In this document: positions 7,675 through 39,615 of the stretch, in pieces | Layout of the letters: every line of letters begins with the position of its first letter | How positions within the stretch are numbered: position 1 is the first letter of the stretch | Source of the DNA: an uncultured Methanomethylovorans sp. | GTDB lineage: Archaea; Halobacteriota; Methanosarcinia; Methanosarcinales; Methanosarcinaceae | Reading direction: 5' to 3' | Assembly (NCBI GenBank): GCA_937968035.1 | Contig: CALBTS010000414.1 | Coordinates: 1-51,637, forward strand | Length of the DNA: 51,637 bases | Position numbers and translations under genes: made by a program | Notes under the pieces: generated by a model | The model's database searches: none | What the model was told of the DNA's origin: nothing | Seen by the model: only the letters and a program-made list of their open reading frames with translations

Positions 7675-7684
7675 CTTATATAAG
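7675..7684 (+). promoter_or_regulatory. TATA box of the AAA+ ATPase gene, with adjacent short inverted repeat
   Basis: CTTATATAAG, a fully palindromic TATA element, lies 54 bases before the ATG at 7738. The identical ten bases occur before thiC (48563-48572). Just downstream GTCCA-aacga-TGGAC (7687-7701) forms a 5-bp inverted repeat close to the expected transcription start. Confidence 0.6.
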
Positions 7685-7737
7685 ATGTCCAAACGATGGA
7701 CTTCTGAAAATACAGAACACTTTTGATCGGTTAGAAC

Positions 7738-9015: not shown

Positions 9016-9020
9016 TACAC

Positions 9021-9761: not shown

Positions 9762-9780
9762 TCATGCCCGGAACATTGAA

Positions 9781-10689
9781 CTATGTCTGTGGCTTTTTTC
9801 CCTTCGCTTCGGCTTCGATCTCTTCACGCAGTTTTCTTAATTTTCTTCTTTTTTTGAGATAATCTGTGATCACTATCAAAGCAAGAGAAGTCAATATCAC
9901 TCCGGCAACAAGTAGATGCCCGGGTGCCGAATCCTTGTAGAACTTCACTGCTATGAGCTTTATTGTATTGGGAGGTGTTTGGATCTCCGTTTTGAATAGG
10001 GTCTCGAACATGCCTACTACAGAACTTTTCTCTGTACCCATATTATACCATACCAGATTCATCCGCCCTTTTTCATCATAATATATGTCTTCAGGATCTG
10101 GTCTTGCCCTGCCTATCAATGAATTTCCTGTAGTATAGCCTTCGGGAAGTACTATACGAACTACTGATGGTGCCTTAGAAATGTGGAGGAAATTCTGACC
10201 GGTGGGCACAGCCATTGTATATGCCACATAACCTCTTATGGGTTCACTGAAGTTGAGGTAGATATGTTTTTGTCCCTTTATCACTTTTTCAGAGATAGTA
10301 TAGTTTAAAGATGATACTTTTTGCTCTGTTGAATAGTTCTGAAAAATATCTATAGAGGAACTGGTATTATTAGCATAATCAGCTATGACCACTATGTTTG
10401 ACAGTATTTCATCATCCGTTCTTGTAATGTCCTCCAGAGGCATGATATCCAATAATGACTCATTATCGATCATGTTTACAACTTTTGCACTGGAATTCGT
10501 AGACAGATAAAAAGTGCTTGTCCTTGCAAAACTGCCATTGAGCTGGCTTCCATTGAGAAACACGTCAAACTCATACATCGAGGAATCAGGTGACTCAGAT
10601 ACTTTCTCCAAAGGCACCAATTCGTCTATGCACCCTGATAGGGGAACTACTGCCAGGAAGCAGGCAATGAGCAGGATAAATCTATTCAT
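9781..10689 (-). CDS. Predicted membrane lipoprotein with C-terminal transmembrane helix, unknown function
   Basis: The protein has 302 residues. The N-terminus MNRFILLIACFLAVVPLSGC is a signal peptide with a lipobox ending at Cys20. The long outer domain is rich in Ser, Thr and Asn, with several N-glycosylation sequons (e.g. NGSF, NNTS). A hydrophobic helix HLLVAGVILTSLALIVI (about 262-278) is followed by a very basic tail KKRRKLRKLREE. It would therefore be held at both ends, with its middle outside the cell. It resembles archaeal DUF5803-like proteins in layout, but that assignment is from memory. It lies 20 bp beyond the hydrolase gene and faces it. Confidence 0.7.
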   Translation of the reverse strand: MNRFILLIACFLAVVPLSGCIDELVPLEKVSESPDSSMYEFDVFLNGSQLNGSFARTSTFYLSTNSSAKVVNMIDNESLLDIMPLEDITRTDDEILSNIVVIADYANNTSSSIDIFQNYSTEQKVSSLNYTISEKVIKGQKHIYLNFSEPIRGYVAYTMAVPTGQNFLHISKAPSVVRIVLPEGYTTGNSLIGRARPDPEDIYYDEKGRMNLVWYNMGTEKSSVVGMFETLFKTEIQTPPNTIKLIAVKFYKDSAPGHLLVAGVILTSLALIVITDYLKKRRKLRKLREEIEAEAKGKKPQT

Positions 10690-12553: not shown

Positions 12554-12961
12554 ATGGCACAGCTACAGAACATAATACGGACAGCACAAGAAAAAAGGTC
12601 TTTTCAGAGCCTGCTTAAAGCCGCAGAGGTACTGGGACTGATAGACAAATACAGCAATACAGGCCCATTTACTGTGTTCGCACCAGTGGAATCGGCTTTT
12701 GAGGTGATACCTGAAGAGGTCATAGAGGAAGCCTTTGCTGACATTCCATACTTGACGGGGATCATAAATTATCATATCGTTGAAGGCAAATACATGTTGA
12801 AGGATCTCCAGAACATTGATTCCCTCAGGACCATAGGCGGTAAAGAACTGAGAATTAAACACAATGGTGGCATTGTGGTGGATACCGCCAACATAACAGA
12901 GCCGGATATTGAATGCAGCAATGGAGTCATCCATGCTATAAGTGAGATCCTGGTTCCATGA
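12554..12961 (+). CDS. Fasciclin (FAS1) domain protein, cytoplasmic form
   Basis: The protein has 135 residues, a single FAS1 domain with both hallmark boxes: GPFTVFAPVESAFEVIP (H1 region, about 37-53) and LTGIINYHIVEGKYM (H2 region). It ends with NGVIHAISEILVP. No signal peptide or membrane anchor is visible, so unlike most FAS1 adhesion proteins it may be intracellular or leave the cell by another route. The start is supported by GGGAGATTAT directly before the ATG. FAS1 proteins of this single-domain size are common in methanogens and halophiles, with unknown role. It faces the ArsR-like gene with 6 bp between ends. Confidence 0.88.
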   Translation: MAQLQNIIRTAQEKRSFQSLLKAAEVLGLIDKYSNTGPFTVFAPVESAFEVIPEEVIEEAFADIPYLTGIINYHIVEGKYMLKDLQNIDSLRTIGGKELRIKHNGGIVVDTANITEPDIECSNGVIHAISEILVP

Positions 12962-23984: not shown

Positions 23985-24635
23985 TTAGCTCTTCTTTGCA
24001 GCCATGACTTTTGTATCACAGCTTGAGATCAGCCTGTTGGATGGACTTTCTATGATCTTCACGATAATTTCTGTTCCCTTCTTCAAGCCGAAGTTGTTTG
24101 ACGTATTTGTGATACTTCCCACTTGCACAGTTACAGTTGAACTGTGACCCAGACCATCGTCACCATTAAGGACAATGACTTCTCCTGCGGACCAATAACC
24201 ATCTGCTATGCAGGGGTTCCTTTTGGCATAATGTGTTTCTTTTCCTGCAGAACATAGATCAAGGTATGTTACCTGCACATCCCCATTGACAATTCTTCCT
24301 CCATGTGCCACCACTCCGGTATAACTGCTACCCTGCCCAACAATAACTATCTTTATGTTTTCAAGGGGCAGGGGATCACCTCCATTATGTACCAGCGTAA
24401 TGAGATTTTCGTTATATCTGATCTCATTAGGTATGCCACCCTCTATTAATTCTAACTCCACATCTGCTGTTAACCCCTTTTTTAAAGGGTTAGGTACTCC
24501 AGCAAGTGAGACAGCAGTGACCCCTATAAGCAACATTGTAATAGCCAGCATCAACAAAGTCCCTACGACAGGACTTATTCCCTGGTCTGTGAACCGGATT
24601 TGCATAAAGTAGGGAAAAGATCGTTTTTGGCCCAT
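23985..24635 (-). CDS. Archaeal type IV pilin-like protein (DUF1628/pilin N-terminal domain)
   Basis: The protein has 216 residues. The N-terminus contains DQGISPVVGTLLMLAITMLLIGVTAV, the standard archaeal pilin/DUF1628 signal with hydrophobic helix, to be cleaved by a prepilin peptidase just before it. The rest is a beta-rich outer domain with two Cys pairs (LCSAGKETHYAKRNPCIADGYW, SSCDT). The TATA box at 24657-24666 lies about 27 bases from the ATG, so translation is probably leaderless. The GAGGT touching the ATG cannot be a normal Shine-Dalgarno. It is near the giant vWA protein and the pilin-like cluster on the same strand, but has its own promoter. Confidence 0.88.
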   Translation of the reverse strand: MGQKRSFPYFMQIRFTDQGISPVVGTLLMLAITMLLIGVTAVSLAGVPNPLKKGLTADVELELIEGGIPNEIRYNENLITLVHNGGDPLPLENIKIVIVGQGSSYTGVVAHGGRIVNGDVQVTYLDLCSAGKETHYAKRNPCIADGYWSAGEVIVLNGDDGLGHSSTVTVQVGSITNTSNNFGLKKGTEIIVKIIESPSNRLISSCDTKVMAAKKS

Positions 24636-24656
24636 ACCTCGAATTACAGATGACTA

Positions 24657-24666
24657 ACTATATAAA
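24657..24666 (-). promoter_or_regulatory. TATA box of the pilin gene, leaderless arrangement
   Basis: On the minus strand AGTTTATATAG is centred about 27 bases before the first base of the ATG. The rest of 24667-24891 is very AT-rich, non-coding, and separates the pilin gene from the end of the giant vWA gene. Confidence 0.6.
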
Positions 24667-24891
24667 CTATTCTAAAATAATTAAACACTTGTAATAATTA
24701 AGTCTTTGCCAGCTATTGCATTAAAAAACATCAGAAAATAAGTAGTGAGAGAAAAGAAACTTTGTTTTATACACACATACAAAAAATAATTTTTTAATTT
24801 TCTGACTGAAAACGGATATTTATCCAAAAATGAAAAATTTAGGCTGAATGAATCAGCCTCGCACCAAAAAAAAGTAGAATAAAAACTCACT

Positions 24892-27800
24892 CTACTTGAT
24901 CCTGATCATCCCCTTTGGTCTGACAACAAGCACTTCTTCACACTCTTTTGTGTCATTTATGTTAGTAGAGTTGATTTTGTGTGCATAAGCCTTAATGTAG
25001 GCATTCCCTGCAGTGGCACTTGAAAAATTCAATGTCTCTGAACCAATCACTGTTATATTTATAGGATTCTGCTTCTGATTAAAATAACCAAGGTTTGTGT
25101 ATAGAGTAACATACGCAAAGCTGTAGTTACCTGTAGTGTCCTTTACCCACAGTGTCAGCTTAGAAGGCTCGTTTATTAAAGTAACAGGCTTGTCAGTTGT
25201 CATCGTGAGGCTTCCTAGAGAATAGGACCATATCCCACCTGCACTACCCCCGACACTTGAACCGCCGCTGGTGGGGAGGTATACTGTTACATTTGAACCA
25301 TTTAAGTCAGTATACGTTATATTCGACTGTGGCAGGATGATAGGCACGTAACCCGAACCTAAAACTTTCATCTGATACCATATTCCCCATTTTTCACCTG
25401 GGTCAAGATTTGGGAGTTGCCATGAAAGGACCGACCTGTCATTGAGATTTGTAATTAGTGGTTCAGAGTTACCTCTTTTCGGAGACCTCGGGATTATAAA
25501 AGAGCTCATATTACCGGTTGTGCAGTTACTGCTTCCCGGAATGTAAGTAGCCTTTGCTATGGCAGTAGGTGTGATGTAGTTGCGAGGTATCTGTATGTTT
25601 AACACAGGTCCCTGGGCAGAAAAATTAGTGATCTGTTCTGCAATGCCTCTGAATATATCCTTCAGAACACTGGAATTTGGTGCAAAATAATACTCTCCTC
25701 CGGTGATACTTGCAATTTCCGACAGCATTGGGTCTACTTCAGATTCACTGTTACCAAATCCTACCGTATATATAACCGTATTGTTTTCCTTTGCCCTGTA
25801 TGCTTCTTCCAACAGTGAGTGGTAACCTGCATTATCTATTCCGTCGGTCATGATGACTATAGTAGAGTTACCGTCTACTGAAGAAAGCTCATTGTTGGCA
25901 ACGAACAGACCTTCATCTATTGCAGTCAACCCATCAGCTGTAATGGTATCTATGACGTTGCTCAGATGGGCGAGGGAATCATTGTTAAAAGTTGATTTCA
26001 CACTTGCAGTCCACTGGCTCCATGAAAGCTGTCCACTTCCTGCAAAATCTTTCTGATAATTATAAACGATATCAAAACATTCATAGGTGCTGCTGGATGA
26101 GGTTTCAATTTCAGAGGTACTACTCCATGAAGAACCGCTCCATCTCTGGATATTGAGATCATTGCTTCCATCAGATGTCATAAGGAATATTTCATTTGAT
26201 TCCGGGTCCGGTGCCAGCTTCACCCAACGTGTTGTGCCTCCTATATTCGATGCTGATAGGGCAGAACCCCATGAACCGGTCCACATGCGATACTTCGGCA
26301 CAGAAGTGCTGTCTCCCCAGACGATCAAAGCTCTTCCACTGGATTGCTCAAACGCAACATCCATTGATCTTCTGGCAGTACTACCGGTATTAGTCCCGAT
26401 TGATTGCCGGGATGACCAGGAGGAACCGCTCCATGAGAAGGCATGTACTGCGTTGGAACCATCCTGGTAAGCAAGTATAACCTTATTAGAATTGGGGTCA
26501 GCTGCTAATTTGAGCCAGTAAGCATTACCCGTGGAATAAAGGTTCTGTTCACTTCCCCACGAACTACCGCTCCAAATACGATATTTTATATAGCTGGAAT
26601 CGGCCCATACGACCATTGCACGCCCTGTTCCCTCTTCATAAACCACATCGAAACACTGGTAACTTGAAGTTCTTGCAGAATTTGTCAGGGATATAGCATT
26701 GCCCCAGGAATTTCCATTCCATACCTGAGCACGCATATACTTTTGATCATCAAGAGTTACAAGTACCATTTCATCAGAATTTGGATTTGCTTCCAGTCTG
26801 ATCCATGCAATGTTACCTGTGCCTGAATATACACTATTGGCCACAGGAGAATCGGAACTCCATATTGAACCATCCCATGTAGTATATCGAGGAACCCGGC
26901 GGTTATCGTACCAATCTGTGAAAACAGCAATTGCGTTCCCTGAACTCTGCTCATATGATATGTCGAAATTTTTTACGTTATAGAAGTTCAATTCACTTAC
27001 CAGCTCCGTAGTGCCATCCCACGATAAACCATTCCACGTCTGGACGTTCAAATTGTAATCATCATCAGAAATGGCCATAATGATCTCAGGACTCGTAGGA
27101 CTTGATTTAAGTACCATGTAAGAAGGAATTTCGTCAACATTATTAGCAGATTTTTCCACAGACCACTGAGAAGTATCCCAGGTTCTGTACTTTGGTGTTG
27201 AACCACCTGCGCTGCTATCGTAATAAGCAGTCATTATAATATCCAGCGGCAAAGCTGAAACATTCACTGTGAATCTGGTATCCGTGAGAGAACCAGCACC
27301 TTTTACAATGTCAATACGATAGGTTTCTCCTGCCTGGAGCAAAGAAGATACCTCACATGTACCTGTCCCGCCGGAAGAGTCCAGAAGGTCCGTCCCATCA
27401 TAAAGATAAGCACTCATTGACGCTGAATCGATCCATGATACATTGAAATTGTACCTTGCAATGTCCGGGACCGTAAAGTACCCAGTCCAGATACTATTAT
27501 CATAAACATAACTTGTCTGAGTATCAGTAGGAGCTAGATCCTCATAGCTGTATAGAGCCAATCCTGCATTGTCACCTCTGGTTTCATCGAAGCTTGAGAG
27601 GAATGCATGTGACGACAACTTGGATGCACTCTTCTTATCGATATACGTTGATACTGTGAAAGGTTGGGAACCTACAGCTGACCCGCTCACCCTTACCGTC
27701 CAGGTACCAAATTCGACGCTATTCCCGGCATCTTCGGAATACAGGTATGAGATGGGCTCGATCCATATATATTCTGAAGTGTCACTGGGATAATAGCCGG

Positions 27801-30426
27801 TTGTACTATAACCTGAACCGTATACTATTCCTGAAGGGCTTGTAAGGCGGAGATTCAGGTCAGAAGCGCTATTGGTCCAGCTTAACTTTACCTTCAGGTC
27901 GTCTATTGATTCATTTATCGTGAAAGTATCCTGGAAAGTACTGCTTCCCGAAATAGAACCGGAAAAACTGAAATCATATGGCGTGAAACCATCCTCACCA
28001 TATTCGATCTCAGAAACATCATAATCGCTCAGTTCCTGTGCAATAGCAGCATAAATTGCGCTCAGATTTGAACTGTCCGGCGTATAATAATATTTGCCCC
28101 CGGTTTCTGATGCAATGTAACTCAATAAAGACTCATCTACATCTCCCAGACCAATCGTATATATAATGATATCGTTTTCGTTTGATACAGGAATTGCATC
28201 TTCTGGATCGCTTCCTCTGTTTGTTTCACCATCTGTGAGCACGACCATTACTTTTTTTGCTCCGGAACGGCCGTTGTTTATAAGCAAATTATTTGCGTCA
28301 GTCATACCGTCTCCCATTGCAGTGTAACCATTTGCGATCATGGAATCTATCTTATTATTAATGGGAAGCCTGTTGTTGTAAACATTAAGAGCGGTCATTC
28401 CGTAATCTACAGTACTTGAGGTTGCAAAGGATACAATACCAACCTTGGAATTTGACACCAGGTTTCCTATGAATTCCTTTGAAGCGGCCTTGGCATCAAC
28501 TATTGGCTGCCCGGCCATACTTCCAGACCTGTCAATAACAAGCACCACATCAAGCGGCGTTCCTGCATAGTAGTCCGGATCCATACTGCCCGAGCGGTCA
28601 AGGACCAGCATTGCGCTTGCAGCTGGTCTTGTGATCGGCAGGTCTCCTTCGATAGACACCACTGAAGTAACACTCACCACATCACCTGAGTTAAGGGACT
28701 CGGGTTCTACGGAAACGGTTGCACTAAGGAAAGGTACATCTTTGACCGTTATAGGAGTGGATGCGGTAGCATTGCCTGCAATGGCAACAATTGTGGTATT
28801 CCCGGGAACATCACTGCACACAAACTTCAGAGACACTCTACCGAGTTCATTTGTTGTTACATTTATGCTTGTAGCATTAACACCATTCATTGAGAGGTTA
28901 CCTAAGGTAGCATTAGTTGTACTGATGGTGAGGTTTATGCCAGATAACGTATGTCCCCACTGGTCTATCGCAACCGCTTTGATCGTACTTTCGTGATTTC
29001 CATTCAAACCCTGAGCAAGCAGAGTGTCATGTGAAGAGTATATATCAAGACTTAGGTTTGACCCTGCCATAAATTGCAACATTGTGGAATTTGCGATATT
29101 AGTATAACCACTGGCGTTCCTGTAGGTAGCAATGATGCTGACATTTTCGACGTAAGGCGTAGGCCCGACCTGAATAGATGCTTTTCCCTCTGAATTAAGA
29201 AGGCCTATCAAGGAACTACTACCATCGTAGAAGACAATCTGCTCTTTTATTGGGAATACGTCTTGGTCCGGAATAATGGGATTAAGGAACTGGTCCACAG
29301 CCTGACCGGTGAGCCTATACTTGTCTTCATTATTAGCATAGGCAATTGTTGGGGAATGAGTAAGAATAAGAGCATCAGCTGAATCTGCAAGTCCTTTTAT
29401 TATGATCTTATAGCTTAGTGAAGTATTGGCCACAGTAATGTTGATAGTATTATCACCTGATCTTTTATCTGTTCTGAATACCGTGTAAGCCAGCCCATCA
29501 ATTCCAGTAATATCGTGAAGATTGCTGAGGTTCAGGGAATTGTACTCATTTGGACTGTTATATGGAGTATGTACAGGAGGGGTCGCATTGAATACAACCA
29601 GGGAATTTTCCACAAAATTATTATAGATATCATAAACGCGTACAGTGATCTCTGAAGTAGTGTTTACGGTGTATTCCACATTGTACCAGAGGCCTATTCT
29701 GAATGGAGCTGCTGGCTCAACTTCAATATCCTTTGAGTTGCTGGCTCCCCCACATGATGCAGAAATATTGATATTACCTGCAATAGTAGAATTGATTGCC
29801 AAAGTTACATTTTGATCAGTAGTTACTGAGTTTGTGAGAACTATATCGGCTATCCCTCTGTCTGTCAGATTATGGCTGGACAGTATATGTGTCAACGTAT
29901 ATGGTGTCCTTGTGATCCTGTCTTCTTTTAGGATATTTCCAAAAACATCTTCAACTCTAACGTCTAAAGTTAGCTCAGCAGTATCATTGATATTGCCAAA
30001 TTGATCCAACATGCTGATCGTAACAGTTGTTGCATTGCCTGCAGTTATCGGATTCTCTGATTCTGTTATGACTATACTCTCGACATCCATAGAAGAAAAA
30101 GTTATGTCCGTGGTGCTGGAAACGCTTCCAATGCTTGCATTGACTGTTGCAACCCCTGCCTCCGTTGTTGCGAGGAACACACGGCCATATCCAGATGCAT
30201 TTGTCAATGCTGAGGCTGAACTCAAGTGACCCAGATTTGTGATGAAATTCACAAGTGTATTGTTTAAAGGAGTGGAATTGTCTGTGACTCTGACCATTAC
30301 ACTTACATTATCCCCTGCACTGTTCTGGACAGACATTGGGTACACTTCTATATTTAATGCCATTACAGACATACTTAATGAAAGAAGCATTAAGGATAGG
30401 ATTAGAAATCTGGTTTGAGCTCTCAT
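24892..30426 (-). CDS. Giant secreted surface protein: Ig-like domains, vWA domain(s) and propeller repeats
   Basis: The protein has 1844 residues. There is a signal peptide (MRAQTRFLILSLMLLSLSMS, cleaved near VMALN). Residues about 25-600 form a series of Ig/invasin-like domains (SVQNSAGDNVSVMVRVTDNSTPL and repeats). At about 607-650 two MIDAS motifs follow each other (LVLDRSGSMDPD, then VVLVIDRSGSMAG), leading into a full vWA domain to about 800. Next come beta domains (about 805-1075) and four repeats of about 100 residues (about 1077-1455), each with two W-G-x-x-W half units (YRIWSGSSWG, FSWSGSSWSS), which suggests an eight-bladed propeller. A partial vWA follows (about 1470-1600: TADGLTAIDEGLFVANNEL, IVIMTDGIDNAG) without its own DxSxS. 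The end is a beta region with no membrane anchor. It probably binds surfaces or other cells. A Shine-Dalgarno (GAGGT) precedes the ATG. Confidence 0.9.
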   Translation of the reverse strand: MRAQTRFLILSLMLLSLSMSVMALNIEVYPMSVQNSAGDNVSVMVRVTDNSTPLNNTLVNFITNLGHLSSASALTNASGYGRVFLATTEAGVATVNASIGSVSSTTDITFSSMDVESIVITESENPITAGNATTVTISMLDQFGNINDTAELTLDVRVEDVFGNILKEDRITRTPYTLTHILSSHNLTDRGIADIVLTNSVTTDQNVTLAINSTIAGNINISASCGGASNSKDIEVEPAAPFRIGLWYNVEYTVNTTSEITVRVYDIYNNFVENSLVVFNATPPVHTPYNSPNEYNSLNLSNLHDITGIDGLAYTVFRTDKRSGDNTINITVANTSLSYKIIIKGLADSADALILTHSPTIAYANNEDKYRLTGQAVDQFLNPIIPDQDVFPIKEQIVFYDGSSSLIGLLNSEGKASIQVGPTPYVENVSIIATYRNASGYTNIANSTMLQFMAGSNLSLDIYSSHDTLLAQGLNGNHESTIKAVAIDQWGHTLSGINLTISTTNATLGNLSMNGVNATSINVTTNELGRVSLKFVCSDVPGNTTIVAIAGNATASTPITVKDVPFLSATVSVEPESLNSGDVVSVTSVVSIEGDLPITRPAASAMLVLDRSGSMDPDYYAGTPLDVVLVIDRSGSMAGQPIVDAKAASKEFIGNLVSNSKVGIVSFATSSTVDYGMTALNVYNNRLPINNKIDSMIANGYTAMGDGMTDANNLLINNGRSGAKKVMVVLTDGETNRGSDPEDAIPVSNENDIIIYTIGLGDVDESLLSYIASETGGKYYYTPDSSNLSAIYAAIAQELSDYDVSEIEYGEDGFTPYDFSFSGSISGSSTFQDTFTINESIDDLKVKLSWTNSASDLNLRLTSPSGIVYGSGYSTTGYYPSDTSEYIWIEPISYLYSEDAGNSVEFGTWTVRVSGSAVGSQPFTVSTYIDKKSASKLSSHAFLSSFDETRGDNAGLALYSYEDLAPTDTQTSYVYDNSIWTGYFTVPDIARYNFNVSWIDSASMSAYLYDGTDLLDSSGGTGTCEVSSLLQAGETYRIDIVKGAGSLTDTRFTVNVSALPLDIIMTAYYDSSAGGSTPKYRTWDTSQWSVEKSANNVDEIPSYMVLKSSPTSPEIIMAISDDDYNLNVQTWNGLSWDGTTELVSELNFYNVKNFDISYEQSSGNAIAVFTDWYDNRRVPRYTTWDGSIWSSDSPVANSVYSGTGNIAWIRLEANPNSDEMVLVTLDDQKYMRAQVWNGNSWGNAISLTNSARTSSYQCFDVVYEEGTGRAMVVWADSSYIKYRIWSGSSWGSEQNLYSTGNAYWLKLAADPNSNKVILAYQDGSNAVHAFSWSGSSWSSRQSIGTNTGSTARRSMDVAFEQSSGRALIVWGDSTSVPKYRMWTGSWGSALSASNIGGTTRWVKLAPDPESNEIFLMTSDGSNDLNIQRWSGSSWSSTSEIETSSSSTYECFDIVYNYQKDFAGSGQLSWSQWTASVKSTFNNDSLAHLSNVIDTITADGLTAIDEGLFVANNELSSVDGNSTIVIMTDGIDNAGYHSLLEEAYRAKENNTVIYTVGFGNSESEVDPMLSEIASITGGEYYFAPNSSVLKDIFRGIAEQITNFSAQGPVLNIQIPRNYITPTAIAKATYIPGSSNCTTGNMSSFIIPRSPKRGNSEPLITNLNDRSVLSWQLPNLDPGEKWGIWYQMKVLGSGYVPIILPQSNITYTDLNGSNVTVYLPTSGGSSVGGSAGGIWSYSLGSLTMTTDKPVTLINEPSKLTLWVKDTTGNYSFAYVTLYTNLGYFNQKQNPINITVIGSETLNFSSATAGNAYIKAYAHKINSTNINDTKECEEVLVVRPKGMIRIK

Positions 30427-30729
30427 TGCAAAACCTCAGCATATTCACATTTTGGCAACATTGGATATTTTCAATTAACAATACACCCAAGTTTCATCAT
30501 GAACATGTATATAAACAAAATGAACATTACTTTCTTATTCACAAAGTTATTAAATTATAGTAAACATACCTGCAAGACGGTAAAAATCATCTCATGTGTC
30601 TGCATATCCGCTTATGTAAAAGGTTTTTGTGAATATGAAAATGCTCTAGGAACACATTATGATCTACGCACCCTGTGAGATCAAGATAACCTTGGCAAAT
30701 GGTTGTCCATCATGATCCCCCAAAAATTC
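30427..30729. other. Non-coding gap with promoter of the giant vWA gene
   Basis: On the minus strand GTTTATATACA (30506-30516) is a strong TATA box, putting the transcript start near 30485 with a leader of about 58 bases. GAGGT at 30433-30437 is the ribosome site. The vWA gene thus has its own promoter, although the six-gene pilin-like cluster upstream reads in the same direction. No gene or structured RNA was recognised in the remainder. Confidence 0.6.
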
Positions 30730-32190
30730 TTAATTGAGTGAAGCTGAAAGATCATTCCTTGTCACATGCAGGTATGTAATAGCCCCTGGCATGCCTTCAT
30801 AATACAATATCAGGCTTGATTCATCATAGTCCACCGGATCAGAGTTGCCCGGGCTGTTCAGATTGAACTTCACAGATCCATCCATTGTGATGAGTTTCAT
30901 GTAATGCTGGGTGATGTTGTAAAGTGAGGTCTGGTCCCCAGAATGATAATTTACATTAGGAGGTAAGCTGATAGAACTTGTGGCATTCCATGAGAAGTCG
31001 TTGGCTTTGTCATATTCCATGATAAAGTTCTTATCCAGCAGGTCCACAATGGCTTGCTGATCCTTCTTGGTACCTGTTACAGGGAAAATATTGACCCCAT
31101 CCCATTCTTCGATATATGATGCTGCTGCTGTGTCCTGATATGTCACAGTAAGCTGGAGCTGGTTTGCTCCTCCTTTCTTTGCCAGAGAATAGATGAGAGT
31201 CTTTGTACCTGATGTCGCAGATATCTGGTAATTCGTAGGATTCAGGCCCTGGGAAGCCCTGGCGCCAAGATCAAAAGAGAAATTGTACATAGGTGCAGAA
31301 CGGGAAACATTAAGTGCCCCTACCTTAAAGTTTTGGGTAAGCACCGATTTGCCCATAGGCGGCATAACCTCAAGTTCCACGACTGCCGTGCTGTTGGATT
31401 CATCCACAGTGGCGCTTGTATATGCAAGCGTGTTAGCGTAGTCAGCCCACGCATTATAAAAATCACTTTTAATGTATATGAGAACCTTGTCAGATTTGAC
31501 AGGATTGGTCATCCTGTCGTCTGTGATAGGGTCTGGATATAAAACTGTGGGCGTGTTATTGGAACTCACCGTTATTCCTACATCAGTATCCCCACTGATA
31601 CTTGTGTTTCCATTGATGCACATTATTGGTAACGTCAGTGTCTCACCATTATAGTTAAACTCGGGAGGTGAGATCATAACAGCTTTCCCTGTAGGATATT
31701 TTGACCATACACCTCCACCTTCGTATGCTACTACACGGTCATCGTTCTTGAAGATGATACTGCCCATGGAAGCATTGAACATAGTGAAGTTCGTCTCGGC
31801 CTCAAAACCCTCCCATGCTTTCCATTTATAGCGTTGGTGGCTGAAACTATCGTACCAGGGAGCATCAATGTCAGCCAAAACCACCTTTATCTCACTGTTA
31901 CTGTATGACTTGCTTTCTCCCTTGACTTCCAGCGTTCCACCCATTAGGGAAATGGATGTGGTCTGTATAGGCGACTCTCCTAGAGCTACCTTGCTGGTCC
32001 TTGAGTCAAATACCGTGAAAGCCTGTTCTGCTTTCTGTGCTTTTGCCATATCCTGCATATCGTTGATTGTAGGTATACCGTATAGAAGGATAGCACCTAC
32101 AGAAAGAGTGGTGAGCATAAGGATGATCACTACGCCCACTACTGAAGATTCGGCTTTTTGACACTTGATGACCACGTTTTTCCCTGTCAT
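30730..32190 (-). CDS. Pilin-like surface protein (cluster gene 6), paralogue of gene 5
   Basis: The protein has 486 residues from the ATG at 32190, which follows GGAGATAAT. An earlier ATG at 32205 overlaps the previous stop and is less likely. The N-terminus has QKAESSVVGVVIILMLTTLSVGAILLYG: a charged residue, small residue, then a long hydrophobic helix, as in archaeal class III pilins and DUF7289-type proteins (family number from memory). The following part (AEQAFTVFDSRTSKVALGESPIQ) aligns clearly with AFGSSPSQSVEIKL of the neighbouring gene, so the two are paralogues. The rest is a large beta-rich outer domain with N-glycosylation sequons. It is likely a filament or minor-pilin component. 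Confidence 0.75.
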   Translation of the reverse strand: MTGKNVVIKCQKAESSVVGVVIILMLTTLSVGAILLYGIPTINDMQDMAKAQKAEQAFTVFDSRTSKVALGESPIQTTSISLMGGTLEVKGESKSYSNSEIKVVLADIDAPWYDSFSHQRYKWKAWEGFEAETNFTMFNASMGSIIFKNDDRVVAYEGGGVWSKYPTGKAVMISPPEFNYNGETLTLPIMCINGNTSISGDTDVGITVSSNNTPTVLYPDPITDDRMTNPVKSDKVLIYIKSDFYNAWADYANTLAYTSATVDESNSTAVVELEVMPPMGKSVLTQNFKVGALNVSRSAPMYNFSFDLGARASQGLNPTNYQISATSGTKTLIYSLAKKGGANQLQLTVTYQDTAAASYIEEWDGVNIFPVTGTKKDQQAIVDLLDKNFIMEYDKANDFSWNATSSISLPPNVNYHSGDQTSLYNITQHYMKLITMDGSVKFNLNSPGNSDPVDYDESSLILYYEGMPGAITYLHVTRNDLSASLN

Positions 32191-32201
32191 ATTATCTCCT
32201 T

Positions 32202-32990
32202 TCATTGAATTGTAACCCTCATGGGTGAGGAAACTATTACCACGTCTATGTTGTCCGGAAGGTATTGCTTCGATGCAGATACAGTACCATTGAACACATC
32301 GTATCCAGTTACCTGCATACCCATTGTTTCATTTAGAAATCTTCCCCAACCATCGTAATATTCACTTCCAATGGTGATGTTGACCATTGATACATTCTCA
32401 TACCTGTGCACAGAAGGCAGTCCTCCATCGCATACAACCCTGACAAGCCCTGTTCCTGAAACACTTGAAGAACCGGACAGCATAACCACAGGTATCATTA
32501 ACAAATTCTCAGCAACTGCAAAATTGGGTTTCGAGATCATCACCACTTTTTCCCTTTCATACTTTGCCCAGGCACCGGTGTTCTCATATCCGATAGATCG
32601 CTCTTTGTAACGATTTTCTATTACTCTCAACTGTCTGTCAAAAGACTTTGTATCAACTACGTGGGTGGAAGAATTCCATACCTTCATCTCCACAATGATG
32701 GAACTGGTACCTGAAACAGCTGCAGTGCTTTCATGCAGCTTTATTTCCACTGACTGAGAAGGGGAGCTGCCGAACGCAACCTTGTTGATATTTGAAGTCA
32801 GTACAGTAAAGCTTTGCTTTATGTTCTCTGTATGTTGCGCTTCCTGCATATGTTCCACCAAAGGAAAACCGGCAGTGCCTATGATAGCTATGGCAGCCAG
32901 CATGATACCCATGGTTATACTGAAATCAACCACTTCTGAAACAGCTTCTTCAGCAGCTTTTAAACCATTTAGAGTATTTTTGAGGGCCAT
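32202..32990 (-). CDS. Pilin-like surface protein (cluster gene 5)
   Basis: The protein has 262 residues. Near the N-terminus, AAEEAVSEVVDFSITMGIMLAAIAIIGTAG is one hydrophobic helix preceded by acidic and small residues, with no further membrane segment. The outer domain starts with EHMQEAQHTENIKQSFTVLTSNINKVAFGSSPSQ, the same pattern as MQDMAKAQKAEQAFTVFDSRTSKVALGESPIQ-type text in gene 6 (split here only by gaps), showing a duplication. The ATG is one base after the stop of the gene before it, so translation is coupled. Confidence 0.75.
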   Translation of the reverse strand: MALKNTLNGLKAAEEAVSEVVDFSITMGIMLAAIAIIGTAGFPLVEHMQEAQHTENIKQSFTVLTSNINKVAFGSSPSQSVEIKLHESTAAVSGTSSIIVEMKVWNSSTHVVDTKSFDRQLRVIENRYKERSIGYENTGAWAKYEREKVVMISKPNFAVAENLLMIPVVMLSGSSSVSGTGLVRVVCDGGLPSVHRYENVSMVNITIGSEYYDGWGRFLNETMGMQVTGYDVFNGTVSASKQYLPDNIDVVIVSSPMRVTIQ

Positions 32991-32991
32991 G

Positions 32992-33462
32992 TCACCTGAT
33001 CTCCAGAGTCCTGTATACTGGATCGTATACTATATAGTGTGTCCCAGCTTCACTGAAGATGGTACTTTCAATGACTCTCATGTTGTTCGTACTGTATGGT
33101 ACCATCACCTTAGTTTCTGTCTTGTCTCTGGATTGCAGCAATATCTCATGGCTGCTGTTAACTATACTTACAGAATAATGTTCCCCTGCTATCCGATCAG
33201 GAAGATCGAGATCATATTCCAGCACCCCTATGTATGCTCCGGAGTTGTCCATAACAGCTACAAGAGAATCTATGCTGGAGATCTGCATCGAAATGTCATT
33301 TCCATGGATCTCGAACTCACTTCTCATAGCAGTCTGTTCTGCCCTGTCCATAAGCGTATAGAAAGCAGTAAGTACAGTGATAAGTGCCAAAACGCTGATA
33401 ACAAAAGTAAGGATGAAACCAATAGAAATAGAAACAGCAGCCTCATCTTCAAGGAGTTTCAT
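32992..33462 (-). CDS. Pilin-like surface protein (cluster gene 4)
   Basis: The protein has 156 residues. EDEAAVSISIGFILTFVISVLALITVLTAF gives a charged start, small Ala-Ala, and one hydrophobic helix, like class III pilins (DUF7266-like from memory). The remaining 120 residues are beta-rich, e.g. HYSVSIVNSSHEILLQSRD. A very strong Shine-Dalgarno (GGAGGT, five bases from the ATG) lies inside the end of the upstream gene, and the ATG overlaps that gene's stop (ATGA). Confidence 0.72.
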   Translation of the reverse strand: MKLLEDEAAVSISIGFILTFVISVLALITVLTAFYTLMDRAEQTAMRSEFEIHGNDISMQISSIDSLVAVMDNSGAYIGVLEYDLDLPDRIAGEHYSVSIVNSSHEILLQSRDKTETKVMVPYSTNNMRVIESTIFSEAGTHYIVYDPVYRTLEIR

Positions 33463-34334
33463 TTTCTACCTCCGGGAACAGGGATAGGATATGAAACGAA
33501 TATTTCTTTATCAGAAGATACTACAGTAATGTTGGCAATCACTACTGCATGCCTTGAGATGGTAAACGGCTGACCGTCAACAAAATTTCCTGAGATCGTG
33601 AATATACCTTCACCTGCTGTGCCATTGAGGACATTTATCTGGTACTCGTGGGAAGACGTCAGATCATTGAAATGGAAGTTAAAGTAGCTGGTCCCGTTCG
33701 TTCCATCACGGATGTGGTTCCCTGTGACATTCAGATAAGTGTATCCTGAAGAAGTTGCAGTATCCAGTGTGGAATTGGTGTCCATAACACTCACGTGCAC
33801 ATCGCCTCCAGAATTGTGGATGTCCATAGCCCAGAGCATGTTGCTACCCATTTCGACAGCTTCAATGCGCAAGCAGCCTGAATTATTAGACAGAGTACTG
33901 GCGTCTGGTATTTCCATTATGAAGACATCTGTCAGGTTCACATTCCTTACCAATGTCCAGTTAGCCACACCATCTGCCATACCATTCTTTGAAAAATGGG
34001 CATTTATAAGCGTACTATTTTCTATGTTCAGACTTGTTCCAGAAAAAGCGAACATCTTAACTAATTGATTTTCGTATGATAAGAGAAAATTTTTGAATAC
34101 ATTACTATCAAAAGTACCGGAGTTTATTGCACTTATATAGGCATCCTCATAAGCATGTGAAGTTAGTGCAAGCACATTTCCCATCTCAAAAGAACTGGTC
34201 TCAGTGCTGGAATCAGAGGCCATGTTGCTTGCATATATGACATTATTGAGCATAACAGTGAATACAACGATGCCCACACCTATAGCAAAGCCAGCGATGA
34301 GTAATATCTGTGCTGAATCATCATCCAGTCTCAT
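33459..34334 (-). CDS. Pilin-like surface protein (cluster gene 3)
   Basis: The protein has 291 residues. The N-terminus MRLDDDSAQILLIAGFAIGVGIVVFTVML shows three Asp, then Ser-Ala-Gln-Ile followed by a hydrophobic helix. The Ala/Gly-Gln-Ile junction is shared with cluster genes 1 and 2 and is the likely cleavage point of a prepilin-type peptidase. The outer domain is long, with many sequons (NNSG, NGTS, NLTD), and ends in a beta strand before PIPVPGGRK. GGAGAA precedes the ATG by seven bases. Confidence 0.72.
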   Translation of the reverse strand: MRLDDDSAQILLIAGFAIGVGIVVFTVMLNNVIYASNMASDSSTETSSFEMGNVLALTSHAYEDAYISAINSGTFDSNVFKNFLLSYENQLVKMFAFSGTSLNIENSTLINAHFSKNGMADGVANWTLVRNVNLTDVFIMEIPDASTLSNNSGCLRIEAVEMGSNMLWAMDIHNSGGDVHVSVMDTNSTLDTATSSGYTYLNVTGNHIRDGTNGTSYFNFHFNDLTSSHEYQINVLNGTAGEGIFTISGNFVDGQPFTISRHAVVIANITVVSSDKEIFVSYPIPVPGGRK

Positions 34335-34350
34335 TATGTTTTCTCCTTGA

Positions 34351-34971
34351 TCACATTCTCCAGAGGGTAAGCTTCACATCCACTATGTTATAGAGATCAG
34401 AAGATGGATCCGAGTCAGGTATACCAGTGTTTGCCACAAAGGAGATCGGATCAGATAAATCGAAGTCAGAAAGCAACACTTTCCTGGAAACAGAAACTGC
34501 GTTATCGGAAGGATCACCATTGTAGATATAAGCTGCTCTTTGTGGTAGTCCAGAACTGTCGATGTATATAAATAAAACATTATGTGCTATCCCTCGGGGT
34601 ACAGCTATCTCTTTAAGTATCCCCGAAGTGGAACTGTTCAAAAGATTAGAGTTCTTAGTATTAACTGAACAGTATGCTGTACCGTTCCAGGAAAACTCCT
34701 GGCCATTCCATGAGATAATGTCCTGCTTAAGAGATGAGGCATGTGCAGAAGAGGTATGGTCCAGCACATTAAGCATGTCCTGCCCTATTGTTTGCATCTG
34801 GGCTTCAATGTGGGCATTGGCCGTAGAGGATGTAAGTGGAGTAAGAGACGTGGCCTGCACAGTGAACACAATTACTGAAACCATTATCATAGTGGCAGTG
34901 ACTGCTTCCAGTGTGTGTATCTGCCCGAAAGGATCTTTTTTCAGATTAGAGTTGATACTCACTCTAGTCAT
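34351..34971 (-). CDS. Pilin-like surface protein (cluster gene 2)
   Basis: The protein has 206 residues. KKDPFGQIHTLEAVTATMIMVSVIVFTVQA holds a basic region, Gly-Gln-Ile junction, a Glu at position +6 after it and a hydrophobic helix: the layout of type IV prepilins (Gly, then Glu near +5, then helix). A possible disordered linker follows and a domain with WNGQEFSWNGTAYCSV. It starts two bases after the stop of gene 1 (TGAGATG). Confidence 0.75.
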   Translation of the reverse strand: MTRVSINSNLKKDPFGQIHTLEAVTATMIMVSVIVFTVQATSLTPLTSSTANAHIEAQMQTIGQDMLNVLDHTSSAHASSLKQDIISWNGQEFSWNGTAYCSVNTKNSNLLNSSTSGILKEIAVPRGIAHNVLFIYIDSSGLPQRAAYIYNGDPSDNAVSVSRKVLLSDFDLSDPISFVANTGIPDSDPSSDLYNIVDVKLTLWRM

Positions 34972-34972
34972 C

Positions 34973-35437
34973 TCACCACACCCTGAATGACATTATGGCA
35001 GTATGTGTGTTACCGATACTGTCCTCTACTAAAACTATTCTTTTAGTCTGTCCTATGCTTCCCACATCCGGAAGACGTTTCCCGGCATATGAGACAACTT
35101 TTGTGCCATTTTCCAGGGAAACATTAAGATCATAGATGAAAAACGTACCACTGATCCCAAGCGAGTTTTGAGCGCTTGTGTAATTTGTATTCAATTGTGT
35201 GAAGAAATCATCCATAAGACTACTGTTCACCATGTTGGGCGTCTGTGGATCACCCGCACTTATCTGATCTTCTACCACAGTTTTTGCTACTCTATCTGCT
35301 ATAATGGTCACCTCATCCGAACTTGATTCAAATGGTGTGAAAAGTCCTGTGGCATACTGGAACACAAACACGAGAGCTAGCAGGAATATCGTAATACCTG
35401 CCAGATAATCCAATGTTATCTGTCCACTTTCATTCAT
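34973..35437 (-). CDS. Pilin-like surface protein (cluster gene 1, first of the operon)
   Basis: The protein has 154 residues. MNESGQITLDYLAGITIFLLALVFVFQY is a minimal prepilin leader: Gly then Gln-Ile-Thr-Leu-Asp (Asp at +5 in place of the usual Glu) and a hydrophobic helix. The rest is a small outer domain (FFIYDLNVSLENGTKVVSYAGKR). It is the first gene of a six-gene minus-strand run (34973 back to 30730) with overlaps or tiny gaps throughout. A TATA-rich element at 35454-35472 is about 27 bases from the ATG, so the operon mRNA may be leaderless. Confidence 0.75.
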   Translation of the reverse strand: MNESGQITLDYLAGITIFLLALVFVFQYATGLFTPFESSSDEVTIIADRVAKTVVEDQISAGDPQTPNMVNSSLMDDFFTQLNTNYTSAQNSLGISGTFFIYDLNVSLENGTKVVSYAGKRLPDVGSIGQTKRIVLVEDSIGNTHTAIMSFRVW

Positions 35438-35542: not shown

Positions 35543-36955
35543 ATGACACAGATGGACCGAGAGATCAAAATAATCCATACTGCAGACACTCATATAGGAT
35601 ACCGGCAATACCACAGTGATGTACGCAGACAGGATTTCCTGCAGGCATTTTCAGCGGTTATCGATGATGCAATTAAAATGAAAGTAGATGCTGTGGTACA
35701 TGCAGGTGACCTTTTTGATTCAAGGACCCCTTCCCTGGAAGATATCCTGGATACAATGAAATTATTCTCCCGGCTCAAAGTAGCAGATATCCCTCTTCTG
35801 GCCATTGTAGGCAATCATGAAAGCAAGCAGAGTACACAGTGGCTTGACCTTTTTGAAAGCATGGGACTTGCAATAAGATTGGGGAACACTCCGTATATGC
35901 TTGAAGAAGTGGCCTTTTTTGGGATTGACAGTGTTCCCCGGTCCAAGATACCACTTTTCGATTTTTCGGTCTTTGAAGAACCTCTGGACTCTTCATATAA
36001 TGTACTTGTAATGCATCAGCTCATGAGTCCCATTACTATTGGTGAGTGGGACTGTGCTTCAGTGATAGGATCTATGCCCTTCCATGTGGATGTGATGCTA
36101 CTGGGAGATTATCACAAGTATGAGAAGATCACCGTGGGTGATACGTGGGTAACATACTGTGGCAGCACTGAGCGCAATAGTCTTGCAGAAAAAGAGGATC
36201 GATCTTACAACATAATTACCGTTTCCGAAAAGGGCATCGATATCAGCAGACGGACTATTTGTACACGGGAATTCTTGAGGATACCAGTGACAATAAGGGA
36301 CCCTGCAAAGATATACGAGGACATATTGTCTGCTGTGAAAGAACAGGACGTGGAAGGGAAAGTGGTGTTCGTAGAAATAACCGGCGATGATGACAGCGTG
36401 TCGATCTCCTATGCTGAGATAGAAGAGATGCTACTTTCACGTAATGTCCTCGTTCCAGGGGTAAGGGACCTGAGGAAAGTCACTGAAGATCTTCTTGGAC
36501 AATCTGTTTCCATTTCCTTCTATGATCCAGATGAGGCGATAAAAGACGAGATCAAAAAAATGAATCTTTCAGAGGGTGGGCTGCTCATGGACGAGATCGT
36601 CAGAGACCTATCCCTTCCCAAAACAAAGGTTAGCGATGAGGCAGAAAACCGTCTTAGTACTCTTCTGGAGATAATGGACTTTTCAAAACCAATACCATTA
36701 ACATGTATCCAGGAAAAAACATCGTTACCTGTATCTGAATCAGGGAAAGAGGCAACTCTTTCTTTACCCCCTGAAATAACTATAATAGAAACTGAAAGAT
36801 CTGAGATCAACATTACCGAGGACAAGGTCCCTGGATCTGAAAATAGGTCAGATATGATTGCAACAGAAACAGAGAATGAAAAGCATCCAGAAAAGAAACA
36901 AAAGGCATCTGCTCATGCAAAGCCAAAACAGTACAATCTGGGTGATTACCTTTGA
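35543..36955 (+). CDS. mre11: DNA double-strand break repair nuclease Mre11
   Basis: The protein has 470 residues. The phosphoesterase motifs run in order: HTADTHIG (I), HAGDLFDSR (II), IVGNHES (III), MHQL (IV) and LGDYHKYE (V, with Gly-Asp-Tyr-His in place of the more usual Gly-His-x-His). The C-terminal 120 residues are less conserved: an acidic Ser/Thr/Glu-rich linker, then KPKQYNLGDYL, the short helix that docks on Rad50 in many archaea. With Rad50 it processes DNA ends. Its TGA overlaps the Rad50 ATG by one base, so the pair is coupled. Confidence 0.95.
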   Translation: MTQMDREIKIIHTADTHIGYRQYHSDVRRQDFLQAFSAVIDDAIKMKVDAVVHAGDLFDSRTPSLEDILDTMKLFSRLKVADIPLLAIVGNHESKQSTQWLDLFESMGLAIRLGNTPYMLEEVAFFGIDSVPRSKIPLFDFSVFEEPLDSSYNVLVMHQLMSPITIGEWDCASVIGSMPFHVDVMLLGDYHKYEKITVGDTWVTYCGSTERNSLAEKEDRSYNIITVSEKGIDISRRTICTREFLRIPVTIRDPAKIYEDILSAVKEQDVEGKVVFVEITGDDDSVSISYAEIEEMLLSRNVLVPGVRDLRKVTEDLLGQSVSISFYDPDEAIKDEIKKMNLSEGGLLMDEIVRDLSLPKTKVSDEAENRLSTLLEIMDFSKPIPLTCIQEKTSLPVSESGKEATLSLPPEITIIETERSEINITEDKVPGSENRSDMIATETENEKHPEKKQKASAHAKPKQYNLGDYL

Positions 36956-39615
36956 TGCTTAAATACCTGAAAGTTGAGAATATCCGCAGTTACCAAGACC
37001 TTGATATTCATTTTAAGAATGGGGTTACTGTTGTTTCAGGGGTTAATGGCAGTGGTAAGTCCAGCCTGCTGGAAGCTTGCTTCACAGGTCTTTTTGGAAG
37101 CAGGACCCTCACAAAAGATTTCACTATCACCGATATTGTGCGAAAGGGAGCCACAAAAGCATCTATTTTATTGGAATTTGAGCAAAATGGTAATGTTTAC
37201 TCTATGGAACAGGTATTTCGTAATGATCCTGAATCTGGGAGAGCCTCAAATACCCGTTCAGTGCTGAAGGTCAACGGGCAGATATTCACAGACCAGGCAA
37301 AACGCACTTACGACAGCATTCTTTCGCTCCTTAGAATGGATGAAGAAGCTTTCAGGAACTGCGTGTACATAAGGCAGGGCGAGATAGATGTACTTATTAA
37401 TGCAAAACCTGCGGACAGGCAGAAGATGATAGATGACCTTCTGCAGATCGGAAAACTTGAAGATTACAGAGAACGTGCCGGAAGTGCCAGGATAGGAGTG
37501 GGAAGACATCAGCGGGATACAGAAAGGCGGATAAAGGAAGTAAAGAACGAAACAGCAGAGATCGAAAGTAAGGATCCTGTTGGCAGCTTGAACCGCTTGC
37601 TGACCGAAGCCTCACAGATTAAGGAACATCATGCTAATGTCATTAAAAAAAGAGATAAAGCAAGGTCAGGCATCGATGAGTTGCGTTCAAAGCTTGGAGA
37701 ATATGAACAACTTACACTTCAAAAAAAGTCGATCAGCACCCAGATACTGGGTTTCAATAATAAAAAAACAGAAGCATTTGAGAGTATTAACAACAGTACT
37801 TCTTCTATTCAATCTCTACGCTCACATATAAATGAACTCAAACAAAGTGTTTCCAGTATCAAGGAACAAATGGAATGGGATGGAGAAGTAGAGCAAATGC
37901 TTGTGCATGCTGAAAAGCAGGAGCTTGTACAACGAAACAAGCTTAACGATGCCGAGCAAAAAAAAGCCTTGCATACGCAAAAAATTGAAAATGCAGATAG
38001 GAATTTACAGCAGCTTTCCAGCCAGATAAAGGATATAGATCTCTCTCTTAAAAGCAACCTGAAGAAGAAGGAAGATGTGGCTGTACAAATTGAAAAGCTA
38101 AAAGTTTCACTTAAAGATACGCAAGCGGAAAAATTACACATGGCAGGAGAAATAGAGTCCCTTGGTTTTACTCCTAAGAAATTATCAGGACTTGAAGACA
38201 TAATAGAACTCGTACAAACCCAACAAAAGAGTTTGCACGGAGACAAAATGAAATTGTTCGCCCGAAAAGAAGAGATCAGCAAGCGTATAAAGAAAAGTAA
38301 ACAACTTATGGATCAAGGCAAGTGCCCTACCTGTGGCCAGGATCTGCATGGCTCTGCAATGCATGAAACGATCCAATCTGATGAGGAACATTTGGCTTCT
38401 TTGGAAGATGAACTGGCTGCTATCAGTAAGAAAGAAGAAGAATTTGGCCTGAAGATGGAACAACTAAAGCAGGTAAAAGCAGTTTCCAAGAAGATGGAGG
38501 ATTGTGATAATCGTATCAGATCATCTAATGAGATAATAGATATGTCTGAGAAAATGCTTCAAGACCATGCTTCAAGAATAGATTATGACAGTAAGAGATC
38601 AAATGAAGCTGTTTCCCATAAACAAGAAATGGAAACAGCAGTTGCACAACTGAAGGAACAGGGACAGTTGCTGCAGGAATCTGTTTCTGTCTCTGTTAAA
38701 AAGCATGCTGAAGCTCTGGAAAAGCTTGATCTTGCAAAAAAAGCACAACAAAAGTTTATAGAAAGTGAATCTAAGGTAAAGGATATAGAGAAGCTGGAAG
38801 AACGGATACACAGTGAACAGGAAAAGATTGGACTGCTGGAACAGCAGATCAAGGATGGAAAACAACGGTTATCAGAGATCGACAAAAGGATGGGAGGGAT
38901 AGATGCAGAATCACTTAGATCCCTGTTGCAGCAGTATGAAGAAGCTCTCAGGAATATCGAAGACGATATCAGGAAGCTGGAAGAGAGAAAGACTGAAGTG
39001 ATGAAGCAAACAGGAATGGCAGAAAAGGAAATAGAAAGGCTTTCCCGCCTGCAACAGGAGTTGCGCTCCCTTCAGCACAGATCAGATTTTCTTGGTGCAG
39101 TGTACAGGGATGCAGAAGAACTTGAGAGTATGTACATGCGCATCAGAGCGGAGCTTCGGTCCCGCAATGTAGGTGCTCTTGATGCTCTTATAAATGAGAT
39201 ATTCGGATTCATGTATTCGAACAACGCATATTCTCATGTGCAGCTCGATCCTGAGTATAATCTGACAATCTTCGGAAAGGATGGTACTCCTCTGGAACCA
39301 AAGTTACTTAGTGGTGGAGAAAGAGCGATCTTCAATCTGGTATTGCGATGTGCCATCTACAGATTATTGTCCATGGCAATGAACGGGCCCGCAAAGGGTT
39401 CAACCCTTCCTCCTTTGATAATGGATGAACCGACTGTATTCCTTGACAGGGGACATGTGCAACAGCTCATCAGGCTCATAGACCGCATGAGAGATTTCGG
39501 TGTGGTCCAGATAATTATTGTTTCACATGATGAAGCACTTATCGATTCTGCAGATCACTTGTTCTATGTGGAAAAAGATCCGATCACAAATACTTCCTCA
39601 ATAACAGCGCGCTAA
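36955..39615 (+). CDS. rad50: DNA double-strand break repair ATPase Rad50
   Basis: The protein has 886 residues from the ATG at 36955. The TTG just before it also reads in frame, but the TGATG overlap with mre11 favours the ATG. Walker A is VSGVNGSGKSSLLEA (about 28-42), Q-loop region YIRQGEIDVLI, then a long coiled coil to the zinc hook GKCPTCGQDLHG (Cys-x2-Cys, about residue 458), the return coil, signature LLSGGERAIFNL and Walker B LIMDEPTVFLD with the D-loop. All key residues are intact. It works with Mre11 to tether and process broken DNA ends. Confidence 0.97.
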   Translation: MLKYLKVENIRSYQDLDIHFKNGVTVVSGVNGSGKSSLLEACFTGLFGSRTLTKDFTITDIVRKGATKASILLEFEQNGNVYSMEQVFRNDPESGRASNTRSVLKVNGQIFTDQAKRTYDSILSLLRMDEEAFRNCVYIRQGEIDVLINAKPADRQKMIDDLLQIGKLEDYRERAGSARIGVGRHQRDTERRIKEVKNETAEIESKDPVGSLNRLLTEASQIKEHHANVIKKRDKARSGIDELRSKLGEYEQLTLQKKSISTQILGFNNKKTEAFESINNSTSSIQSLRSHINELKQSVSSIKEQMEWDGEVEQMLVHAEKQELVQRNKLNDAEQKKALHTQKIENADRNLQQLSSQIKDIDLSLKSNLKKKEDVAVQIEKLKVSLKDTQAEKLHMAGEIESLGFTPKKLSGLEDIIELVQTQQKSLHGDKMKLFARKEEISKRIKKSKQLMDQGKCPTCGQDLHGSAMHETIQSDEEHLASLEDELAAISKKEEEFGLKMEQLKQVKAVSKKMEDCDNRIRSSNEIIDMSEKMLQDHASRIDYDSKRSNEAVSHKQEMETAVAQLKEQGQLLQESVSVSVKKHAEALEKLDLAKKAQQKFIESESKVKDIEKLEERIHSEQEKIGLLEQQIKDGKQRLSEIDKRMGGIDAESLRSLLQQYEEALRNIEDDIRKLEERKTEVMKQTGMAEKEIERLSRLQQELRSLQHRSDFLGAVYRDAEELESMYMRIRAELRSRNVGALDALINEIFGFMYSNNAYSHVQLDPEYNLTIFGKDGTPLEPKLLSGGERAIFNLVLRCAIYRLLSMAMNGPAKGSTLPPLIMDEPTVFLDRGHVQQLIRLIDRMRDFGVVQIIIVSHDEALIDSADHLFYVEKDPITNTSSITAR

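Follow-up and report, generated by a model that had tools for sequence, protein, structure and literature searches.

Six euryarchaeal pilin genes and a large vWA/propeller protein in Methanomethylovorans: a candidate adhesive type IV pilus

The locus described here raises the question of whether a row of pilin-like genes and a large secreted protein, found side by side in an uncultured Methanomethylovorans sp., may act together as an adhesive filament. Both lie on the minus strand of contig CALBTS010000414.1, between positions 23,985 and 35,437 of the analyzed stretch of 51,637 nucleotides (the window). The initial annotation likened the six genes, here g1 to g6, to the bacterial minor pilins FimU/PilV/PilW/PilX/PilE, and the 1844-residue protein to PilY1. 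The reading favored here, with a confidence slightly better than even, is a euryarchaeal type IV pilus made from g1-g6, with the motor encoded elsewhere and the large protein held by the pilins as an adhesin, most simply at the tip. The steps that lead from the genes to a pilus have good support; the display of the adhesin on the tip is plausible but unproven.

The pilin block spans positions 35437 to 30730 and contains six open reading frames (ORFs): g1 (34973-35437, 154 amino acids, aa) is a DUF7287 pilin (Pfam 8e-35), g2 (34351-34971, 206 aa) a DUF7288 pilin (3.6e-48), g3 (33459-34334, 291 aa) a DUF7261-like pilin, whose score of 16.9 bits is below the Pfam cut-off of 27, g4 (32992-33462, 156 aa) a DUF7266 pilin (4.3e-11), g5 (32202-32990, 262 aa) a DUF7289 pilin (1.8e-25) and g6 (30730-32205, 491 aa) a modular pilin, combining DUF7289 (9.6e-26) and DUF7308 (1.4e-22). 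Membership of the bacterial minor pilin families is not supported. The strand and the number of genes had been correctly given, but not the start of the block: 34973 is the 3' end of g1, whose true start is 35437. The genes are tightly packed, as had been claimed, with spacings of 1, 16, -4, 1 and -4 bases between successive ORFs, and form one operon, of pilins that are probably minor ones. The two clear paralogues noted earlier are g5 and g6 (26% identity over 244 aa, E 7.5e-23). Hydropathy bears out an N-terminal hydrophobic helix for each gene: a strong N-terminal window is present in all six, with a single weak additional one in g5 (mean 1.44 at residue 157). The nearest genome compared, Methanomethylovorans sp. 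PtaU1.Bin093 (G001, contig C30), encodes a DUF7288 protein 96% identical to g2.

The six proteins are identified as pilins by their Pfam families and by the junction preceding the helix. The Gly/Ala-Gln-Ile junctions pointed out in g1, g2 and g3 (SGQITLDY, FGQIHTLE, SAQILLIA) are present, with predicted cuts at SG/QITLD (D at +5), FG/QIHTLE (E at +6) and SA/QILLIA; the corresponding sites are AA/VSISIG in g4, EA/VSEVVD in g5 and KA/ESSVVG in g6. When homologues are aligned (counting the row of the window itself, and excluding rows that start with residues other than M, V or L), position -1 is occupied by G or A in 43 of 44 rows for g1, 40 of 43 for g2, 43 of 43 for g3, 46 of 46 for g4 and 41 of 41 for g6, and by A in 29 of 30 for g5. 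Position +1 is Q in g1 (41/44), g2 (40/43) and g3 (43/43), and mostly V in g4 (42/46), g5 (22/30) and g6 (34/41); an acidic residue follows as D+5 in g1 (43/44), E+6 in g2 (41/43) and D+6 in g5 (26/30). A looser regular expression, applied to wider sets, was passed by 55/67, 67/70, 61/64, 88/106, 56/77 (DUF7289) and 21/21 rows of the respective families. It is very improbable that the helices serve simply as signal peptides or membrane anchors of the ordinary kind, with no pilin role: loose motifs of this kind may occur by chance, and just 56 of 77 DUF7289 rows passed the looser test, but the conservation of -1 in the aligned rows, the presence of T2SSE and T2SSF in the same locus elsewhere and the 54-residue N-terminal helix of the g6 model all argue against it. 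As judged from their sequences, g1-g6 are almost certainly pilin-type proteins with conserved junctions of the prepilin peptidase type; their class III leaders would be cut by the prepilin peptidase of the cell, and one Peptidase_A24 gene per genome was found in all six relatives' genomes searched.

The acidic residue at +5/+6, present in g1, g2 and g5, is found at +6 in 13 of the 46 rows for g4 and is almost wholly missing from g3 and g6. Tip pilins of the GspK/PilX type are characterized by having no acidic residue around +5. In bacteria, lack of Glu5 is described as marking a tip subunit (PMC9934059, considered in part); by analogy, its lack in g3 and g6 is suggestive only. The last pilin, g6, would bear an additional domain: in its predicted model (pLDDT 85.5, N-terminal helix at residues 21-74), the DUF7308 part (aa 303-470, 30796-31299) forms a sandwich of galectin/ConA-like shape. 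Foldseek gave no match for g6 at E<=0.001 and, PilC rows excepted, no archaeal or bacterial pilin stands at the top of the g6 fold lists; absence from such lists excludes nothing.

That the block is more than a chance association is indicated by the recurrence of the order DUF7287-7288-7261-7266-7289 in loci of the order and of the phylum, all of which were chosen for containing DUF7288. This order is kept in 37 of the 40 order loci read, some of them cut by contig ends and one decayed: L061 and L062 are rearranged, and L069 shows two genes before its contig ends. It is found as well in all 20 phylum loci read, although L120 and L121 each have one unmatched member and L123 has two; several of these loci are, in our reading, haloarchaeal. 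DUF7288 itself is present in 39 of the 60 relatives, in 61 of the 111 family genomes and in 106 of the 146 genomes from the phylum (104 above the cut-off), and Haloferax volcanii, included among the controls, also gives a match. The gene set is thus a known kind of system, and fits the euryarchaeal type IV pilus predicted in the part of PMC4858521 considered here.

The surveyed loci display several variations. A tandem pair of complete six-gene clusters is found at L038, L039, L040, the first beside mre11 as in the window. In G006 (L043, L044) one cluster is decayed, with DUF7287 in two ORFs, g6 missing and an adhesin remnant with stops, and a second one is intact. In family f3 (L055-L060) the DUF7288 pilin reaches about 1470-1690 aa, with an insert splitting it near position 76-85; the two such pilins scanned (L057, L060) contain FG-GAP repeats.

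A pilus needs a motor, and none was found nearby. In agreement with what had been stated, neither T2SSE nor T2SSF is found in the 40 window ORFs scanned with Pfam, a set that does not include the Rad50-like ORF at 36952-39615 or ORFs that are small or overlapping; nor was a secretion ATPase seen beside the pilin clusters in the family loci read. In the phylum, 12 of the 20 loci hold a secretion-ATPase ORF with a GGTASGKTT or GETASGKTT P-loop. The T2SSE and T2SSF pair occurs in L140, L120 and L132, and was confirmed in both phylum loci checked by Pfam. A specific candidate located elsewhere is an orphan class, where an ATPase is followed by a T2SSF protein (both Pfam-confirmed in L140). In a tree of 32 ATPase cores, this class clusters, with support 91/91, with the majority of the operon ATPases from the phylum loci; the ATPase of L133, also located by a DUF7287 cluster, falls outside the group on a long branch.

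The distribution of the orphan class follows that of the pilins. When its limit is placed at 59% identity, a value set after viewing the list (the next whole-domain matches are at 55%), it is found in 35 of the 60 genomes: 35 of the 39 with DUF7288, and none of the 21 without. Fisher's test gives 1.6e-12, although the genomes are related and the value is not independent; by genus the table becomes 16, 1, 0, 8 (p 8e-6). As for the exceptions, G006 has a 98%-identical remnant with a stop, G031 and G050 are 75 and 87% complete, and G057, 99% complete, features DUF7288 but no orphan ATPase match. Since it tracks DUF7288 and groups with most operon ATPases, the orphan class is preferred as motor over FlaI, a split-TadC class and a pilin-linked class. 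Sequence evidence thus makes the orphan ATPase-TadC pair the likely, candidate motor of the g1-g6 pilins, which would be assembled by this PilB-type ATPase with its fused TadC platform.

Downstream of g6, after 303 bases, lies the 1844-aa protein (24892-30426), followed, after a further 256 bases, by g8 (23985-24635, 216 aa), the archaeal pilin that had been noted here: it matches PF07790 (1.9e-14) and might be a major pilin. The vWA and propeller content attributed to the large protein is found again, the former by Pfam (VWA 4.6e-35, along with Big_1 4.4e-20), the latter by structure prediction, at aa 1103-1450 (26077-27120). A first MIDAS-type motif, LVLDRSGSM (aa 607-615, 28582-28608), in which D610-M615 are invariant in 11 of 11 homologues, is proposed as the first strand of an outer, split vWA. 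An inner vWA follows at aa 626-792 (28051-28551), and a second vWA half, matching the profile only from position 55, at aa 1466-1605 (25612-26031). Joining aa 598-624 to 1466-1606 changes the score from 18.3 to 28.4 bits for VWA_2, from 39.8 to 42.4 for VWA and from 30.5 to 30.0 for VWA_3, and no best stretch began at the profile start. Since VWA_3 did not rise and the profile start was never reached, an outer vWA split by an insert is retained as a putative arrangement.

Membership of PilY1 is not supported. Up to E 1, no Pfam family of the PilY1-type C-terminal beta-propeller is matched by the protein, and the propeller, a predicted fold like that of the g6 sandwich, resembles PLL-type lectins and other propellers, with Z values that do not separate lectin from non-lectin ones. 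Pilus-tip adhesins are present among the Foldseek rows: SpaC is at rank 1, PitA at 13 and Mfa5 at 38. The protein has an N-terminal hydrophobic, signal-like segment and is without a C-terminal membrane segment. The same largely holds for its homologues, of which 356 were found, 120 listed and 91 tested: a C-terminal membrane segment is present in none of the 91 and a hydrophobic N-terminus in 80, and the aligned N-termini appear Sec-signal-like. The adhesin would accordingly be exported by Sec, with no membrane anchor of its own.

Whether adhesin and pilins belong together was evaluated in 111 family genomes, with a match threshold of E<=1e-60. The adhesin is found in 27 of them, and 23 of the 27 have a copy no more than 6 kb from DUF7288. 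Placement was read from 35 adhesin rows, in which pieces of one gene had been joined manually, and from 56 DUF7288 rows that come largely from adhesin-bearing genomes, other DUF7288 rows being omitted; cluster types (A, B) were labeled by us from profile span, score and the loci read. HMM labels used in reading loci mix DUF7266 with g6-type genes. Seven of the 35 adhesin rows have no DUF7288 on their contig. Of the 28 copies that do, 18 are convergent with a five-gene cluster and 8 divergent from a cluster; of the other two, one is nearby on the same strand (G001) and one is 58 kb away (G003). The same-strand order of the window was encountered only in its genus, in the window, G001 and G002, where a g6-like gene is immediately upstream of the adhesin on a short contig, plus an adhesin piece in G004. 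One copy, in G009, adjoins a pilin and a DUF7289-like gene; another, in G202, which has no DUF7288 match, is at a contig edge. As a neighbor of the pilins in most adhesin-bearing relatives, the adhesin may be the part that the filament presents for gripping.

Several observations weigh against this. No adhesin is found, at the threshold used, in 35 of the 61 DUF7288-bearing family genomes; within the genus the modules are separable, as G003 carries the adhesin at the mre11 locus but lacks the six genes, while G005 and G006 carry six-gene clusters without adhesin; the commonest neighbor of the adhesin is the five-gene sister cluster rather than the six-gene one; and in five genomes of other families (f3, f4) the adhesin is not next to pilins, although one of these has hardly any flank. 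The expectation that relatives would keep the vWA/propeller gene beside pilin clusters thus stands for most adhesin-bearing genomes, but a strict pairing with the six genes is ruled out, because G003, G005 and G006 separate the modules and because of the 35 genomes lacking adhesin. The separability of the modules, the 35 genomes lacking adhesin, the five in which it is not next to pilins and the 303 bases between operon and adhesin speak for a pilus and an independent adhesin, a stand-alone protein, S-layer-associated or released, sharing the same surface-adhesion island. This is a possible, less probable reading: the neighborhood is maintained in 23 of 27 genomes through several arrangements, an anchor of its own is absent from all 91 homologues tested, and in sister families some pilins of this set contain adhesin-type modules (FG-GAP in two proteins of DUF7288, Big_7 in one of DUF7266).

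In the favored pilus reading, the adhesin would be held by the pilins non-covalently, most simply at the filament tip, and its propeller and metal-binding vWA domains would attach to a glycan, a partner cell or some surface. That it binds the pilins, sits at the tip and mediates adhesion is suggested by the neighborhood, the lack of an anchor, the fusions and analogy. A short secretion pseudopilus, a pilin piston exporting the neighboring large protein and others with no surface filament, might be suspected, since the pilins are mostly large (154-491 aa), the operon is without an abundant small major pilin and the adjoining adhesin is secreted. It is improbable, as the adhesin comes with a Sec-type N-terminus of its own and, as is well established, archaea of this group lack a second membrane that a protein would have to pass. 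Related loci, in addition, are described as pili (PMC4858521, in part).

A more elaborate version of the pilus reading, tentative and rather unlikely, is that archaea reached independently a PilY1-like tip. This would combine a modular pilin of lectin fold with a vWA/lectin-propeller adhesin that has a double MIDAS and whose split outer vWA would hold the inner vWA and the propeller in its insert. In a sister family, which may be guessed to be ANME-2c-like, a propeller would lie within the DUF7288 pilin itself; in other genera the operon begins with an ArlCDE-like archaellum protein, which might couple an adhesive pilus to the taxis machinery.

A protein of 446-902 aa, ending in the archaellum ArlD/E domain Arch_fla_DE, is encoded on the same strand directly upstream of DUF7287 in several loci. 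It was Pfam-confirmed in five (L037:2912-5620, L046:238-2424, L064:635-1975, L048:17489-19900, L041:17630-19717), and some of these proteins give an additional weak FlaC match. In the family, 19 of the 61 genomes with DUF7288 have Arch_fla_DE upstream of it at a distance below 2 kb, a count based on 20 pairs chosen by eye as near; in the genus of the window it is located elsewhere. This hints at a link of the pilus to archaellum-type ring or taxis parts. Two ArlDE-like ORFs are close together in L113 (G012, 4289-10555), where nearby ORF N-termini look pilin-like by eye. The window also encodes a 1309-aa protein with TPR family matches over most of its length (551-4480) and a small stand-alone fasciclin-domain protein (12554-12961).

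Little is known of how archaeal pili grip, and the sole tip-adhesin proposal found concerns another pilus clade. The idea of an archaeal tip adhesin is not new, since for the pili of Methanococci, PilY-like proteins with DUF2341 were put forward as tip adhesins by Makarova et al. (PMC4858521, in part); no description of the present adhesin family, its folds and its pilin neighborhood, nor any occurrence of the word DUF7288, was found in the open-licence literature searched. With pilin set, candidate motor and candidate tip adhesin now named, the proposal is testable by deletion in cultivated relatives (Methanolobus, Methanohalophilus). If true, it would show that the combination of a pilin set with a vWA/propeller adhesin exists beyond the PilY1 family, and would give a role to DUF families, one of which (DUF7288) occurs in most of the phylum genomes surveyed.

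Among known systems, the closest is the PilB4-type set of euryarchaeal clade 2 (Makarova, Koonin and Albers 2016; PMC4858521, in part). As in the window, pilin sets are found beside or away from the ATPase/TadC genes, and a duplicated, FlaFind-positive minor pilin of 250-550 aa is present (arCOG02911, to which we assign DUF7289, by size and duplication). Unlike in the window, an S-layer-like protein is listed and no vWA/propeller adhesin, and the roles of the other pilins are left open; the parts of that description considered here have nothing on an orphan motor or DUF7308. PilY1/PilC of bacterial type IVa pili, like the window protein, is a secreted non-pilin that combines an N-terminal vWA with a propeller, and its gene lies near those of minor pilins (PMC7541494, in part). 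The window adhesin differs in having no Pfam PilY1 domain, a lectin-type propeller, an Ig-like N-terminus, a second vWA half and unrelated pilin families. Among the tip pilins PilA/PilB/PilC of S. sanguinis, a pilin carries the vWA as a fused module (PMC9934059, PMC8179133, both in part), while in the window it belongs to a separate secreted protein, and no sequence homology was found between the two. The DUF2341 proteins of Methanococci share the idea of an archaeal tip adhesin by analogy with PilY1 (PMC4858521, in part), but belong to another type IV pilus clade, and their domain is not among the Pfam matches of the 1844-aa protein. Kil/Tad tips, finally, are built from bacterial Tad pilins, with no DUF7288-like pilin family as far as described in the part of PMC12075869 considered here; like the window, they feature sets of minor pilins, whose added modules customize the tip.
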